DNA of 64,000 nt from Piscinibacter sp. HJYY11 (GTDB lineage Bacteria; Pseudomonadota; Gammaproteobacteria; Burkholderiales; Burkholderiaceae_C). The DNA is taken from positions 1,736,001-1,800,000 of the forward strand of contig NZ_JAERQZ010000001.1 in NCBI RefSeq assembly GCF_016735515.1, written 5' to 3'. A program made the position numbers and the translations under genes. Numbering within the stretch: the stretch's first letter is position 1; each line of letters starts with the position of its first letter. The notes under the pieces are model-generated. The model was not told where the DNA came from. It saw only the letters and a program-made list of their open reading frames with translations, and made no database searches. Below are positions 47,700-54,181 of the stretch, piece after piece.

Positions 47700-48401
47700 A
47701 TGAACAAGCTTTTGCGCGCCCTCGCGCTCGCGTTCGCGGCCGGCGCCACCGCCCCGGCCTTTGCCGCCAACTTCTTCGAGGGCTTCGACGGCACCGGCGG
47801 CGCCGGCTCCGCCTGGGAAACCGCGAGCTGGCACAACGGCGACATCTTCGGCTGCACCTTCGCCTACAGCGAGGTGTGGCGCACCGGCTGGGGCTCGCTC
47901 GCGGCCAACGTCAACAGCAGCAACCGCTCCAACGTGAAATGCGCCGAGGTGCGCACCTGGCAGTCGTTCACCTACGGCAAGTTCGTGACGCGCCTGCAGC
48001 CGAGCACCATCGCCGGGTCGAACACCTCGTTCTTCCTCTACACCGGCACGGCCGGCACCTCGAGCCACTTCGAAATCGACATCGAGTTCATCCACGGCGG
48101 GCGAACGCTGCACACCAATGTGTGGACGAACGGGCGCCAGAACTACCAGCAGTTCTCGGTGGCCACCGGCTGGCGCACCATCGGCTTCGAGTGGCGCCCG
48201 AGCTACGTGCGCTGGTTCCATGTCGAGGCCAACGGCACCGAGCGCGAGTTCCGCCGTGTCAACACCAGCATCAGCACGCCAATGCGCCTCATGATGAACC
48301 ACTGGGTGGGCAACAACTCGGCCGGTGCGGTCAACTTCGTCGGCACCTACAACGGCGGCGGCGGCCCCGCCTACTACGACTGGGTGCGCGTCAGCGACTG
48401 A
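47700..48401 (+). CDS. GH16 beta-glucanase (lichenase-like)
   Basis: A 233-residue secreted enzyme with a Sec signal (about 1-22, ending PAFAA) and the GH16 active site at residues 125-129, EIDIE, in SSHFEIDIEF: Glu125 nucleophile, Asp127 helper, Glu129 acid/base. The compact size and contiguous E-x-D-x-E suit the beta-1,3-1,4-glucanase branch, in which the extra Met of laminarinases is absent. GACAGGAGAC precedes the start. A small GC-rich hairpin (47653-47670) separates it from the preceding gene. It would cut mixed-linked glucan outside the inner membrane. Confidence 0.9.
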   Translation: MNKLLRALALAFAAGATAPAFAANFFEGFDGTGGAGSAWETASWHNGDIFGCTFAYSEVWRTGWGSLAANVNSSNRSNVKCAEVRTWQSFTYGKFVTRLQPSTIAGSNTSFFLYTGTAGTSSHFEIDIEFIHGGRTLHTNVWTNGRQNYQQFSVATGWRTIGFEWRPSYVRWFHVEANGTEREFRRVNTSISTPMRLMMNHWVGNNSAGAVNFVGTYNGGGGPAYYDWVRVSD

Positions 48402-48440
48402 GACCCCCTAGCCCCACTCTCCACCGTGCAAAGGATCAAG

Positions 48441-49277
48441 ATGAAAGCAGCGCTCGCCTCGGGCATCTGGTTGGCGGCCCTCGCGGCGGCGGGTTGTGGC
48501 GGTGGGTCCGGCTCGGTCTCCGCCGCGCCGGCGGCGGGTGGCCTGCCCGAGGGCTACCGCCTCGTCTGGAGCGACGAGTTCGACACCACCGGCCTCCCCG
48601 ACCCGGCGAAGTGGGGCTACGACACCTACCGCAACCGCGACGGCTGGTACAACAACGAGCTGCAGTACTACTCGGCCGCGCGCGCGGAAAACGCCCGCGT
48701 GGAAAACGGCTCACTCATCATCACCGCGCGGCGCGAGCGCCTGGCCTCGGCGCCTGACTTCGGCGGCCAGAACTACACCTCCGCGCGGCTGCTCACGCGG
48801 GGCCTCGCCTCGTGGACCTACGGCTTCTTCGAGGTGCGCGCCAAGCTGCCCTGCGCGATGGGCGCGTGGCCCGCGATCTGGATGCTCGGCGATCGCGGCA
48901 CCTGGCCCGACGACGGCGAGATCGACATCATGGAGCAGACCGGCTGGCAGCCCGGCCGCATCCTCGGCACTGCCCACATGCGCGACTTCAACGGGGCCAA
49001 CGGCCGCGGCTCGCACACCAACGTGGCCGACACCTGCAACACCTTCCACCGCTACCAGGTGCGCTGGACACCCGAGGCCATCACCTGGGGCGTCGACGAC
49101 GTCACCTACTTCACCTACGCCAAGCCCGCCGGCGCCAGCTACGGCAACTGGCCGTTCGACCACCCGCAACACCTGCTGCTCAACGTGGCCGTCGGGGGCA
49201 TCCTGGGCGGCACGCCCGACGATGCGGCCTTCCCGGTGCGCATGGAAGTCGACTACGTCCGCGTGTACCAGCGCTGA
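48441..49277 (+). CDS. GH16 endo-beta-1,3-glucanase (laminarinase-like) lipoprotein
   Basis: A 278-residue lipoprotein (lipobox AAAGC, Cys19) with a GH16 domain: LVWSDEFDTTGLPDPAKW, YNNELQYYS, GAWPAIWML and the active site GEIDIMEQTG with Glu160, Asp162 and Glu165. The E-I-D-I-M-E form marks the laminarinase-type subfamilies. The end, MEVDYVRVYQR, is the usual GH16 closing strand. Together with the preceding lichenase-like enzyme it gives the locus two linkage preferences. Confidence 0.93.
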   Translation: MKAALASGIWLAALAAAGCGGGSGSVSAAPAAGGLPEGYRLVWSDEFDTTGLPDPAKWGYDTYRNRDGWYNNELQYYSAARAENARVENGSLIITARRERLASAPDFGGQNYTSARLLTRGLASWTYGFFEVRAKLPCAMGAWPAIWMLGDRGTWPDDGEIDIMEQTGWQPGRILGTAHMRDFNGANGRGSHTNVADTCNTFHRYQVRWTPEAITWGVDDVTYFTYAKPAGASYGNWPFDHPQHLLLNVAVGGILGGTPDDAAFPVRMEVDYVRVYQR

Positions 49278-49542: not shown

Positions 49543-50274
49543 ATGACCCTCATATCGTTCGCATGTCTCGCGCTCGGCCTCTTCGTCGGCGCCGGCGTCA
49601 CTTTCTGGTGGAGCCGCCAACGCAGCGCCGCCGCCGTGGAGCTGGCCCGCCACACCGCCGTGCAGGCTGTCGAACAGGCCAGCGCCGCCACCGTCGCCGA
49701 GCTGCAACGCCAGCTCGAGGAACTCTCCCGCACCGCCGCCGCCGACCGCGCGGCCCTCGAAGCCACGCACCAGGAACAGCACCGCACCCACCAGATGCTG
49801 CTGAAGACGGTGAGCAGCGGCGCCGAATCATTGAAGAACCACGCCCTCGAAGGCGCCGACCGCCTGGGCAGCACCATCGACAAGCTGCTCGGCCTCATCG
49901 AGACCTTCGAGCGCTGGAACGGCGAGCTCAACCAGCTGCTGCAGCACAACCGCGAGATGCACTCGAAGAACGACGAGTTCGCGCAGATCGTGAACCAGGT
50001 GATCATCGTCGCGCTCAACGCCTCGATCGAGGCCGCCCGCGCGGGCGACCAGGGCCGCGGCTTCGCCGTCGTCGCCGCCGAAGTGCGCGACCTCGCCACA
50101 CGCGCCGACAAGCTCTCGAAAGACTACCGCTCCAACCTCTACAAGAACGACCTCATCACCGGCAGCACCTTTCAGGACCTGCAGGCCGGCGGCAAGATGA
50201 TCGTCGGCGCCCTGAACGAGCTGCGCCTGCTCAACGGCAAGACGCGCCAGGCCGTCATGGCGGAGGCGGCGTGA
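49543..50274 (+). CDS. short membrane-anchored MCP-like signalling protein
   Basis: A 243-residue protein with one N-terminal membrane helix (about residues 3-23), a coiled coil (about 28-75) and an MCP-type hairpin tip, IVALNASIEAARAGDQGRGF, near residues 150-172, followed by AVVAAEVRDLATRADKLS. There is no periplasmic or HAMP domain and the second helix is short, so it is a minimal signalling scaffold rather than a full receptor. The stop overlaps the CheX start (GTGA). It opens a module with CheX, CheY and a 7TM kinase-like sensor. Confidence 0.85.
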   Translation: MTLISFACLALGLFVGAGVTFWWSRQRSAAAVELARHTAVQAVEQASAATVAELQRQLEELSRTAAADRAALEATHQEQHRTHQMLLKTVSSGAESLKNHALEGADRLGSTIDKLLGLIETFERWNGELNQLLQHNREMHSKNDEFAQIVNQVIIVALNASIEAARAGDQGRGFAVVAAEVRDLATRADKLSKDYRSNLYKNDLITGSTFQDLQAGGKMIVGALNELRLLNGKTRQAVMAEAA

Positions 50275-50840
50275 GGATCTTCCAGGTGAGCGACCGGGCG
50301 CGCCAGGGGCTCGACCACTTCGTCGCGCAAGCCGCCAGGAACTCGCTCGTGCGCCACGGCGAGCCCTGCGAGGTCGTGCCCGACGACGACACGCTGGTGC
50401 CCAAGGCGCCCGACGTGGTGATGTTCACCGTCACCTCGTACCTCTTCCGCGTCGTGCTCCTGATCCAGTTCGACCGCGACCCGGCCACCCGCGCCTACAT
50501 GGCTGGTCTCGCCTCCACGCCGGTCGACGAGATGAACGGCGAGCGCTTCTTCGACACGATGAACGAGCGCGGCAACCTCTTCTGCGGTGCGTTCAACCGC
50601 GACCTGGTGCCGTTCTTTCCCCACATCGGCATGTCCACCCCTTGCGTGCTCAAGCGCAACTCGGTGGAGCACATCACGGCGGTGAAGCCGAGCTACCACC
50701 GGCGCTTCCGCTGCGAGCTGGCGCCGGGCGTGGCGATGTATTTCACGCTGGCGCTCTGCGCCGATGCCGATTTCGACTTCGCCTTCGAACCGCGTGCGGA
50801 AGAGGAAACCGACACCGCCGGCGAACTGGAAATGTTCTGA
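50271..50840 (+). CDS. CheX-like chemotaxis phosphatase
   Basis: A 189-residue protein starting at GTG overlapping the MCP-like stop. Around residues 95-102 it carries D-x3-E-x2-N (DTMNERGN, Asp95, Glu99, Asn102), the catalytic pattern of CheC/CheX/FliY phosphatases that hydrolyse CheY-phosphate, with a downstream Pro close to the expected distance. The acidic tail (EEETDTAGELEMF) is not part of the core fold. It probably resets the CheY of the next gene. CheX is uncommon in betaproteobacterial flagellar clusters. Confidence 0.78.
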   Translation: MRIFQVSDRARQGLDHFVAQAARNSLVRHGEPCEVVPDDDTLVPKAPDVVMFTVTSYLFRVVLLIQFDRDPATRAYMAGLASTPVDEMNGERFFDTMNERGNLFCGAFNRDLVPFFPHIGMSTPCVLKRNSVEHITAVKPSYHRRFRCELAPGVAMYFTLALCADADFDFAFEPRAEEETDTAGELEMF

Positions 50841-50883
50841 CCTTTCCTGTTTCTCTCTCACTGACTTTCAAGAGGTAATCCAA

Positions 50884-51252
50884 ATGGCCCAGATCCTGGT
50901 GGTGGACGATTCGAGCACCGTGCGCGTCGAAGTGAGCGACTTCCTGAAGAAGGCGGGTCTCGCGGTGGAAACCGCGGTCGACGGCCGCGACGGCCTCTCC
51001 AAGCTCAAGAGCGACCCCGGCATCAAGCTGGTCGTGAGCGACGTGAACATGCCCAACATGGATGGCCTGACCATGGCCGAGAAGATCCGTGGCGAGCTCA
51101 ACAACGCGGCCGTCAACATCGTGATGCTGACCACCGAGAACTCACCCATCATGAAAGAGCGCGGCAAGGCCGCCGGCATCAAGGGCTGGATCGTGAAGCC
51201 CTTCAAGGGCGACGCCGTGCTCGCCACCTTCAAGAAGCTCGCTGGCGCCTGA
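50884..51252 (+). CDS. CheY-like single-domain response regulator
   Basis: A 122-residue receiver domain with acidic pair Asp8/Asp9, phosphoacceptor Asp53 (VVSDVNMPNMDG), Thr83 in MLTTEN and Lys105 in IVKPF, all the residues needed for phosphorylation. There is no output domain, so it acts by protein binding. It lies between the CheX gene and the 7TM sensor gene, making it the likely phosphate acceptor from the sensor's HPt and the substrate of CheX. Confidence 0.93.
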   Translation: MAQILVVDDSSTVRVEVSDFLKKAGLAVETAVDGRDGLSKLKSDPGIKLVVSDVNMPNMDGLTMAEKIRGELNNAAVNIVMLTTENSPIMKERGKAAGIKGWIVKPFKGDAVLATFKKLAGA

Positions 51253-51322
51253 CCGGCTGCATCGCGGGGCCCGGCTGCGGCGGGGCTGGAAAAGAATTCA
51301 TGCGCATCACGCGCTGCACACC

Positions 51323-54181
51323 ATGCTGTTCCGCCTGATCCTCCTCACGGCCGCCTTGCTCGGCCTGCTTCCCTCTGCTTTCGCCGCCGAGTCCGCCTGC
51401 CAGGCCTGCGGCGTGCAGGTGACGACGCTGGCCCAGCCTCTCAAGCTGGCCGGCACCTGGCTCTTCACCCGCGACGACAAGCCGCAGAACAAGGACGTCG
51501 GCCTCGACACCTCCGACTGGAAGCTCGCCAAGGCCCCGGGCCCGTGGAAGCACATCTACGGCGACAAGCAGAACTTCTCCGTCGGCTGGTACCGCGGCAG
51601 CCTGCACTTCGCGCCCGAGCTGGTGGGCCGGGAAGTGGTGCTGCTGGTCAACACCTACATGGCGCGCACGCAGGTGTTCGTCAACGGCCAGCTGATCTAC
51701 GCGCGGCCGCACGACATCAACGTCGAGCGCTACCACTCGATCCAGCCGATCCCCGTCCGCTTCAAGATCACCCAGCCTGAGCAGGTGGTGGCGATCCGCG
51801 TCGACACGCCGCTCATGACCGGCATCTACCAGCTGCCGCTGGAGATCCATGCCTACGACCAGCACGACGCCAGCCTCGTGGCCCACCAGGTGTGGGGCGG
51901 CGAGATGCGCACCATCATCTCGTACGTGGTGCTGACCTTCGGGCTCTTCTTCCTGCTGGTCTATGCCAAGACACGCCACTCGATGTACCTGGTGGCGGCG
52001 ATGGCCAGCATCCTGATCTTCCCGTTCTTCGCGGCGCCGGGCGACTACTTCCTGCAGATCTTCCAGCCCGAGACGATGCTGTACTGGCACTACACCGGCC
52101 TGTCGGCGATCTTCGTCTTCTACCTGTTCACGCAGTACGTCCACGTCTTCACGCCCAAGCTGAACTGGTTCTTCGGCATCACGCAGACGCTGCTCGCGCT
52201 GGGCTGCGGAGCGCAGATGTTCTTCCCCGACCTCACGCTCTTCCAGGGCATGCGCAGCGCCCTCTTCATCGAGAGCCTGGTCATCGGCGTGCTGTCGCTC
52301 TACATGACGGTGCGCGGCGCCATGAAGCAGCGGCCGGGCGCCCGCCCGCTGGCCTTCGGCCTGCTCGTCTTCCTCGTCACCGGCACCAACGACGTGCTGC
52401 TGGCCCTGGGCGTCATCAGCTCCATGGCGGTGATCTTCACCGGCGTGGCCACTTTCGTGGCGGCCATGCTGTACGTGGCCTGCATGCGCTTCGCCAACAC
52501 CTTCCTCGAGAACAAGAAGCTCCTGACCGACGTGCAGGCGCTGAACGACAACCTCGAAGCCCTGGTCGCCGAGCGCACGCAGCAGCTGCACGAGAAGACG
52601 CACGACATCCACGCCATGCTGCAGAACATGCCGCAGGGCGTGCTGACCATCACCGGCGACAACGCCATCCACCCCGAGTACTCCGCCTACCTCGAAACCA
52701 TCTTCGAGACGAAAGACATCGCCGGCCGGAACGTGATGGCCCTGGTGTTCGCCGGCAGCAACCTCGGCGCGGACCGCCTGTCGCAGGTGGAAGCCGCCGC
52801 GGCCTCGTGCATCGGCGAAGACCGCATGAACTTCGATTTCAATTCGCACCTGCTGGTGCCGGAGTTCGAGAAGACGCTGCCGGATGGCCGCCTGAAGTCG
52901 CTGGCGCTCAGCTGGTCGCCGATCTGCGACGAGCACGACACGGTCGAGAAGCTCATGCTCTGCGTGCGCGACGTCACCGAGCTCAAGCGCCTGGAGCACG
53001 AGGCCAGTGCGCAGAAGCGCGAGCTGGAGATCATTGGCGAGATCCTGGCGGTGAGCCAGGAGAAGTTCCACGAGTTCGTGGGCGGTGCGCTGAAGTTCTG
53101 CGCCGACAACAAGCGCCTGATCGAGCAGGCCGCGCCCCGCAGCGCGGAGACGGTGAACCTGCTCTTCCGCAACATGCACACGGTGAAGGGCAACGCCCGC
53201 ACCTACGGACTGCTGTACCTGACCAACCTCGTGCACGAGACCGAGCAGGCCTATGACGACCTGCGCAAGGGCAAGGCCGAGTGGAACGGCGAGGCGTTGC
53301 TGGCGCAGCTCGCCGAGGTGCAGGCGATGCTCGAGGAATACGCCCGCATCAACGACCACGTGCTGGGCCGCCAGGGCCCGGGCCGCCGCGGCAGCGTGGA
53401 GAAATTCGTGATGGTCGACAAGGCTCAGGTCCAGCAGTCGCTCGGCCTCCTGGTCAACGTGGACCAGAACGACCCGGCCGCGATGCGCGCCGTGCTCGCG
53501 CAACTCGGCCGCACGCTGAACCTGATCGGCACCGAACGCATCGGTGAGACCCTCGCCGGCCCGATCGAGTCGTTGCCGTCGCTGGCCCGCGAGCTGGGCA
53601 AGGAAGTACCGGTCGTGCACATCGAGGACCACGGCATCGTCCTGCGCACCCAAGTGGGCGGCCTGCTGAAGAACGTGTTCTCCCACCTGCTGCGCAACGC
53701 CGTCGACCATGGCCTGGAGCCCACGGCAGAGCGCCTGTCCTGGGGCAAGCCAGCGGCCGGCCGCATCGACATCGCCCTGTCGGTGGACGACGGCAAGCTG
53801 CACATCCACCTGCGCGACGACGGCCGCGGCATGGCCATCGCGAGGATCCGCGAGCGTGCGTTGGAGTGGGGACTCATCGCGGCTGGTGATCAGCACACGC
53901 CGGAGGAGATCGCGCAGGTCATCTTCCACTCGGGCTTCTCGACTGCCGAGCGTGTCACCGAGGTGTCGGGCCGCGGGGTGGGCATGGATGCGGTCAAGGG
54001 CTTCCTGGAGAAGGAAGGCGGCAGCATCGAGATCCGCTTCACCGGCGACGAAGTGCGGGGCCACCGGCCGTTTGAGCTGGTGCTGAGCTTGCCGGACAAG
54101 TACGCGGCTTCGTTGGATGCGGCGCTGTCGTTTGACGCGCTGCGTCAGCGGCTTGCGAGCGCTTCGCTGGCTGCGCGCTGA
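51323..54181 (+). CDS. 7TM-DISM sensor with PAS, HPt and CheA-like ATPase domains
   Basis: A 952-residue protein. Order: signal peptide (about 1-22); jelly-roll ectodomain (about 35-190, with VGWYRGSLHFAPELVGREVV and VFVNGQLI, resembling sugar-binding domains of GH2 enzymes); seven membrane helices (about 195-395); coiled coil (about 398-430); PAS-like domain (about 432-555); HPt with His619 in HTVKGNARTYG; a spacer; and a CheA-like ATPase (about 740-935) with HLLRNAVDHG at 788, DDGRGM and GRGVGMDAV. No CheW/P5 coupling domain follows. This is a CheA-like kinase fused to its own receptor. It ends the four-gene module; the nearby GH16 genes suggest a glycan cue. Confidence 0.85.
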   Translation: MLFRLILLTAALLGLLPSAFAAESACQACGVQVTTLAQPLKLAGTWLFTRDDKPQNKDVGLDTSDWKLAKAPGPWKHIYGDKQNFSVGWYRGSLHFAPELVGREVVLLVNTYMARTQVFVNGQLIYARPHDINVERYHSIQPIPVRFKITQPEQVVAIRVDTPLMTGIYQLPLEIHAYDQHDASLVAHQVWGGEMRTIISYVVLTFGLFFLLVYAKTRHSMYLVAAMASILIFPFFAAPGDYFLQIFQPETMLYWHYTGLSAIFVFYLFTQYVHVFTPKLNWFFGITQTLLALGCGAQMFFPDLTLFQGMRSALFIESLVIGVLSLYMTVRGAMKQRPGARPLAFGLLVFLVTGTNDVLLALGVISSMAVIFTGVATFVAAMLYVACMRFANTFLENKKLLTDVQALNDNLEALVAERTQQLHEKTHDIHAMLQNMPQGVLTITGDNAIHPEYSAYLETIFETKDIAGRNVMALVFAGSNLGADRLSQVEAAAASCIGEDRMNFDFNSHLLVPEFEKTLPDGRLKSLALSWSPICDEHDTVEKLMLCVRDVTELKRLEHEASAQKRELEIIGEILAVSQEKFHEFVGGALKFCADNKRLIEQAAPRSAETVNLLFRNMHTVKGNARTYGLLYLTNLVHETEQAYDDLRKGKAEWNGEALLAQLAEVQAMLEEYARINDHVLGRQGPGRRGSVEKFVMVDKAQVQQSLGLLVNVDQNDPAAMRAVLAQLGRTLNLIGTERIGETLAGPIESLPSLARELGKEVPVVHIEDHGIVLRTQVGGLLKNVFSHLLRNAVDHGLEPTAERLSWGKPAAGRIDIALSVDDGKLHIHLRDDGRGMAIARIRERALEWGLIAAGDQHTPEEIAQVIFHSGFSTAERVTEVSGRGVGMDAVKGFLEKEGGSIEIRFTGDEVRGHRPFELVLSLPDKYAASLDAALSFDALRQRLASASLAAR

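Follow-up and report, generated by a model that had tools for sequence, protein, structure and literature searches.

We analysed a window of 64,000 nucleotides from the 5.6-Mb genome of Piscinibacter sp. HJYY11 (C1:1736001-1800000) that carries, on the forward strand and in this order, genes for a short protein resembling methyl-accepting chemotaxis proteins (MCPs), here called sMCP, a CheX-family phosphatase, a single-domain CheY and a sensor kinase. This four-gene module is real, recurrent and conserved. Comparisons of sequences and predicted structures suggest, with a probability that we put at roughly 0.6, that it would act as an array-independent relay made from chemotaxis parts, with the sensor fused to the kinase. 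The parts are mechanistically known and appear to have been rewired, and no paper describing the module was recognised in the open literature searched, which covered titles and abstract openings, with most subscription journals outside its scope.

The four genes and their conservation

The sMCP gene (49543..50274, +) encodes 243 amino acids (aa), comprising one N-terminal transmembrane segment, a long stretch with no recognised domain and an MCP tip hairpin, with an invariant FQ..QA.G motif. The CheX gene (50271..50840, +), encoding 189 aa from an inferred GTG start at 50271, shares 4 nt with the end of the sMCP gene, provided that this GTG is its start. CheX has an ExxN motif (E99, N102) and ends in a tail, GELEMF (codons 50820..50837, +), that is common to other chemosensory proteins. 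CheY (50884..51252, +; 122 aa; D8, D9, D53, T83 and K105) belongs to a module-specific clade. The kinase (51323..54181, +; 952 aa) combines a periplasmic N-terminus, a 7TMR-DISM part, PAS, an HPt domain with H619, an apparent short P3-like stretch and a CheA-type P4 domain, and it lacks P5.

A preliminary description of this DNA had proposed such a set of genes, and the four genes and the key residues that it named proved to be present (His619 of the kinase; D8/D9/D53/T83/K105 of CheY; D95/E99/N102 of CheX). In family alignments, H619 is invariant in 16 rows, D53 of CheY in 13 rows and E99 and N102 of CheX in 56/56 rows. Its claim that the module is devoid of P5 and CheW was likewise borne out: the kinase gave no match, and none of the 10 places in the genome with a CheW domain lies in the 64-kb window, the nearest being at C1:1822114, ~32 kb downstream of the module. 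With no CheW in the window and no P5, the module falls outside the canonical chemosensory pathways (F, Tfp and ACF), in which CheA and CheW couple to receptors.

A scan for consensus promoters found none, a result that is uninformative in a GC-rich genome. An origin from a mobile element was set aside: plasmid records gave just two short matches (<100 bases; 80.0 and 82.5% identity), and CheY matched 69 records of a phage collection, every one at <60% identity.

Recurrence of the module in relatives

When the whole kinase was searched against 250 genomes of the order, with as a rule the three best candidates scored per genome, matches at <1e-100 were obtained in ten genomes, the window's own included, and some match at 1e-3 in 195 of the 250. 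The weaker matches listed mostly cover only about residues 700-930, as CheA P4 domains would; exceptions occurred in two genomes (G187 and G174), where the alignment to the window kinase extends over ~412-912 at 27-29% identity. Among the strong relatives, the match starts between residues 347 and 439, close to where the membrane part ends or beyond it. A search of 369 class-wide genomes with a PAS-HPt profile returned eight at <=1e-20 (own included), of which four were at <1e-100. The CheX of the module was detected at 1e-15 in 9 of 100 relatives, again counting its own genome, and within the genus in 5 of 11; the distribution of the module is therefore patchy.

A profile scan of 31 loci, collected via kinase, CheX or sMCP, identified sMCP at 27, and at every one of these (27/27) CheX adjoins it on the same strand. 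CheY is present at 26 of the 27 (exception, L148), and a kinase core lies nearby at 26, the exception being L106, whose genome encodes two such kinases at other places (L099 and L100). sMCP is missing from four loci: L047, at a contig end, L049, a paralogue from the window's own genome, L099 and L100. As some loci had supplied rows of the profiles, these counts describe association, not frequency, and L044-L046, all three from Curvibacter, are closely related. Since the genes are found together again in Betaproteobacteria and further relatives, they are not together by chance, and this recurrence supports the combination first described, in which CheY, CheX and an MCP-like protein devoid of a sensor accompany a kinase that has its own sensor and no P5. 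The kinase matches of L143 and of L148 are each split over two reading frames, through decay or sequencing error.

The gene set recurs in relatives, where the commonest order, kinase-sMCP-CheX-(REC-like-CheX)-CheY, puts the kinase first; the window has sMCP-CheX-CheY-kinase. In addition, 18 of the 27 sMCP loci contain an extra gene, REC-like-CheX, which encodes an N-terminal receiver-like region followed by a CheX domain. One search for REC-like-CheX elsewhere in the window's genome found none, an absence that is not firm because the query lacked a positive control.

A CheA-like kinase with its own sensor

In Pfam, the window kinase matched 7TMR-DISM_7TM (30.2 bits; cut-off 29), which places it among the 7TMR-DISM receptors, as well as Hpt and HATPase_c, and weakly PAS (E=0.026); a PAS-like stretch is present in the predicted model. 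Hpt and HATPase were matched in 16/16 kinase cores. No CheW/P5 match was found in the window kinase at E<=1 in the complete family list, and the protein terminates ~35 aa past P4. For the 16 cores, neither CheW nor H-kinase_dim was among the best 25 of 28 families (so that a match, at E 0.29 or worse, could exist for no more than one of them), and the full Pfam lists for the window's own kinase held no H-kinase_dim match. Across 15 other rows, the PAS-to-P4 core is 41-66% identical to the window's.

The AlphaFold model of the kinase (528 aa; mean pLDDT 85.5; pTM 0.47, so that domain placement is unsure) consists of the PAS-like stretch, a four-helix HPt, two short helices at the P3 position, P4 and a final helix. 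In a structure search, P4 and HPt matched P4 and P1 of CheA, with the repeat protein BRIC1 slightly outscoring CheA P1 for the HPt. Helices 276-287 and 294-310, both short, fell within structural alignments to P3P4 chains of CheA that had an rmsd of 7.8-8.9 A; the second round of this comparison was largely confined to residues 263-503 of the model. When the kinase profile was compared globally with 17 CheA-type sequences, the probability was 100%; agreement was good along P4, and coverage upstream, in the P3-like stretch, was weak. The model suggests that the kinase may contain a short, divergent P3-like stretch.

The kinase thus shares with CheA (P1-P3-P4-P5) the folds and residues of P1/HPt, including the phospho-accepting His, and of the P4 ATPase, and perhaps a short P3-like stretch. 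Unlike CheA, it has its own sensor and PAS and no P5/CheW domain, and any P3 is shortened and unmatched among the Pfam families listed. The available text of a CheA survey reports that the P5/CheW domain was detected in 100% of surveyed CheA (PMC10782961); by that definition the kinase is not a CheA, because this domain is absent. As far as its sequence indicates, it should function like a CheA with a built-in sensor. The N-termini of the kinases differ among relatives (HAMP, 4HB + HAMP, GAF, Ser/Thr-kinase-AAA-GAF or 7TMR-DISM) on a conserved PAS-HPt-P4 core, and to judge from these architectures the sensors are interchangeable on that one core.

A second kinase in the same genome (G000:C1:434519-440464; L049 4520-10465) carries Ser/Thr kinase, AAA and GAF domains before a PAS-HPt-P4 core that is 66% identical to the window's. 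No sMCP or CheX was found near it in the 16 kb examined. This kinase may be an input to the same CheY.

CheX-family proteins and the module CheY

On its own, the window CheX matched Pfam CheX weakly (E=0.047, under the cut-off); 51 of the 56 family members matched at E<=1, the best at 7.3e-7. Its predicted fold (pLDDT 89.6) resembles CheX/CheC-like structures of T. maritima, Shewanella, Vibrio and Borrelia, with TM-scores (query) of 0.50-0.58. By predicted fold and motif, the protein is confirmed as a member of the CheX family. It shares fold and ExxN with CheX of T. maritima and B. burgdorferi (PDB 1squ, 3hzh), but identity is low (13-16% in structural alignments) and the module CheX adds a flexible G-x-[LM]-[ED]-x-F tail. 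All four REC-like-CheX proteins scanned matched Pfam CheX above the cut-off, and none of the four matched the receiver model at E<=0.1; the alignment suggests a degenerate receiver as their N-terminal part.

The window CheY has the Asp pocket, Thr/Ser and Lys of its family. A tree built from 56 receiver rows placed the module CheYs on a single 23-row branch (99/92), separate from the CheZ-adjacent flagellar CheY of the same genome, and they do not group as flagellar CheYs. A motif-based label for module CheYs covered 21 of the 23 branch rows, so the label test gives two changes. Other members of the class have sets in which a PAS-HPt-P4 kinase is followed by CheY (L101-L104) and by a weakly matching CheX (L102-L104; L101 has kinase and CheY only). 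These sets differ from the module in that they have no sMCP match, their CheX-like proteins (L102-L104) have no tail and their CheY is of another clade.

A C-terminal tail on several chemosensory proteins

The tail is the most surprising part of the finding. G-x-[LM]-[ED]-x-F ends the best 120 of 346 CheX relatives (120/120) and the best 120 of 1890 REC-like-CheX relatives (120/120; 8000 scored), such best scorers being biased towards tail-bearing proteins. A DNA search of 14 genomes for G-[DE]-[FILMV]-[DE]-[FILMV]-F ahead of a stop (or Trp) gave 38 matches, and the pattern in reverse gave 2; a stricter pattern gave 21 against 1 in 13 genomes. The 38 matches comprised 11 CheX, 13 REC-like-CheX, 5 CttP-type MCPs, 3 CheD, 1 CheZ-like protein, 2 copies of a GGDEF protein and 3 others. 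Two of the 13 REC-like-CheX, recognised as such by inspecting their sequence, are additional copies located outside the module (G060:C14 and G480:C213), and three matches, which come from G486 alone, do not form the end of any open frame of at least 20 aa. As 12 of the genomes had been chosen for the module kinase and two (G623 and G650) for its CheX, the matches to CheX and REC-like-CheX were expected, whereas those to CheD, MCPs, the CheZ-like protein and GGDEF were not.

The assignment of the tail-bearing CheD proteins is firm (E 1e-33 to 4e-35), while that of the CheZ-like protein combines a weak Pfam match (E=0.0016) with an FQDMTSQ motif. Two tail-bearing CttP-type MCPs also matched Pfam CheZ weakly (E=0.12 and 0.015), and a tail of the same kind ends 117 of the 120 CttP-type relatives listed. 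The GGDEF protein (342 aa; L111 12129-13157, G000:C1:4456128-4457156) adjoins a Pil-Chp cluster and ends in GDVELF; a near-copy is found in G623. The sMCP of G480 (L098 6081-6896, -) ends in FELDF, resembling the CheX tail. In the flagellar/chemotaxis region of the window's genome, an open frame of 217 aa (L109 6269-6922; G000:C1:1819268-1819921) sits just before a CheY; it has an FQDMASQ motif, ends in GSIELF and has no Pfam match. What we take to be the genome's CheZ (L109 3700-4347), judged by its VDDLLASLGF end, has no tail.

In the CheX model, the final nine residues are of low confidence (pLDDT 49), as a flexible docking peptide would give. A role as a beta-clamp-binding motif, the consensus of which begins with Gln, was set aside. 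The available text of a study on McpA describes the conservation of its C-terminus as striking and its role as unclear, and reports that this end of P. aeruginosa McpA binds none of four CheR homologues (PMC7184735). Six tail hexamers were printed in no paper of the open literature searched. CheX, REC-like-CheX and CheZ-like proteins probably act on CheY-P as phosphatases. Tentatively, the hexapeptide G-[DE]-[VILM]-[DE]-[LMF]-F could be a general chemosensory docking tag on McpA/CttP receptors, CheD and phosphatases of two folds that are not related, CheX (ExxN) and CheZ-like proteins (DxxxQ); it would bring each of these proteins to a common partner, for which the F7/module-type CheY is the likeliest candidate. 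The module would then be an array-free relay rewired around this tag, with the degenerate sMCP tip as scaffold, a proposal that we consider conceivable but do not favour at present.

Proposed mechanism and alternatives

In the proposed relay, a periplasmic or membrane signal would alter the kinase dimer, P4 would phosphorylate His619 and the phosphoryl group would then pass to Asp53 of CheY. CheX would strip it from CheY via E99/N102, and the flexible tail would keep CheX at its target, probably CheY; the C-terminus of E. coli CheZ plays a comparable docking role. sMCP would serve as the membrane scaffold of the relay and not as a receptor. Our leading guess for the output of CheY-P is motility. 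FliM is encoded at ~61938 of the window and was detected in 13/13 kinase-bearing genomes searched; in the sample of the order it was present in 167 of 250 genomes and in 10/10 with the kinase (P=0.016, kinship ignored). In L143, from the same genus, the gene neighbouring the module, presumably flhA, is 98% identical to that of the window.

The alternative that survives best, which we nevertheless consider unlikely, is that the kinase functions as an ordinary sensor kinase of the two-component type and that its CheY governs something other than motility (e.g. type IV pili, biofilm or c-di-GMP), with a vestigial MCP-like gene. The kinase sensors do vary like those of ordinary sensor kinases, and the tail-bearing GGDEF protein lies next to the Pil-Chp cluster of the same genome. 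However, FliM in all 13 genomes speaks against such an output, and a protein that is present at all 27 (of 31) loci with CheX and has 32 invariant positions in an alignment of 14 rows is hardly a vestige.

Slightly less probable still is that sMCP acts as a poison or adaptor subunit: it would place its tip in ordinary arrays and thereby give kinase, CheY and CheX a means of adjusting chemotaxis. In agreement with this idea, CheW, like FliM, is present in 13/13 kinase-bearing genomes searched, and sMCP retains the tip hairpin of MCPs: MCPsignal was matched in 14/14 family members, including the window sMCP, where the match (E=1.2e-17) covers the tip only (positions 43-92 of 172). On the other hand, 22/22 distinct sMCP tips carry V, I or G in place of the Asn of the QTN tip signature, with Thr kept in L055 alone and Gln in most. 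Tallied by hand from alignment rows and column totals, 22 other receptors have T-N in 22/22 and Q-T-N in 21/22, and distinct CttP-type tips have QTN in 105/105. Because the tip has lost an otherwise constant Asn, pairing of sMCP with ordinary CheA/CheW is disfavoured, and its docking to such arrays appears doubtful. The absence of P5 from the kinase and the separation of the module CheY from flagellar CheY also argue against the array idea.

sMCP further lacks the input side of an MCP: the 8 Pfam families that the window sMCP matched at E<=1 included no input domain or HAMP, and neither did the best 25 of 100 families listed for the other 13. The McpA/CttP-type F7 chemoreceptors (P. aeruginosa PA0180) have an FQD motif in the descending arm as sMCP does, and a tail as on the module CheX; they keep QTN and measure ~400 aa, whereas the window sMCP has no tail and a tip without the Asn. 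A candidate identity of sMCP as CheZ was rejected, as CheZ was matched neither in the window sMCP nor among the best 25 of 100 families listed for the 14 sMCPs, and as the alignment indicates that the Gln position of the CheZ motif is not conserved.

By far the least probable is that the module reports beta-glucan, as the preliminary description suggested, with the glucan freed by neighbouring GH16 enzymes: a tandem pair of GH16 genes lies upstream on the same strand (47700-49277, +) and the window ectodomain is weakly like sugar-binding jelly rolls, but GH16 homologues (E<=1e-5; open frames of at least 90 aa) were absent from the 15-19 kb around the module in 8/8 relatives of the genus and family, so that the idea is without comparative support, and relatives carry swapped sensors. 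These eight include L142 and L149, with sensors 54% and 50% identical to the window's. We know of no established glucan specificity of 7TMR-DISM ectodomains.

Several observations weigh against the array-independent relay. The window cluster has no REC-like-CheX gene and may hence be a reduced version; in G486, two such kinases sit away from the sMCP-CheX-CheY cluster; and the second kinase of the window's genome, with the same core, may compete with that of the module. The IEAARAG..GRGF hairpin retained in sMCP could still allow entry into ordinary arrays, for which CheW is at hand in the 13 genomes. The flagellar association, which leans towards motility, is weak, as kinship was ignored. Finally, the tail also occurs on CheD and the GGDEF protein, which are not CheY phosphatases, so that CheY need not be its partner.

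Implications

The available text on Flm of Comamonas testosteroni describes another case of chemosensory parts with a non-canonical output in a betaproteobacterium; unlike the module, it uses an adaptor resembling CheW and a CheA-like kinase of the Tfp class (PMC6391922). Flm and, judged by the text available on it, Rvv of Vibrio were set aside as different systems. Because different sensors plug into the same core, the module would be a general converter of diverse inputs into a fast CheY signal. CheA is described, in the survey text available, as sensor-less and receptor-dependent (PMC10782961). The tail on CheX, CheD and CheZ-like proteins bears on the open question of the McpA C-terminus, as posed in the available text of that study (PMC7184735), and supplies a testable set of partners. 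If our reading is true, the module runs a CheA engine without P5 from sensors that are built in and swappable, and would illustrate how the chemistry of chemotaxis can be separated from arrays.

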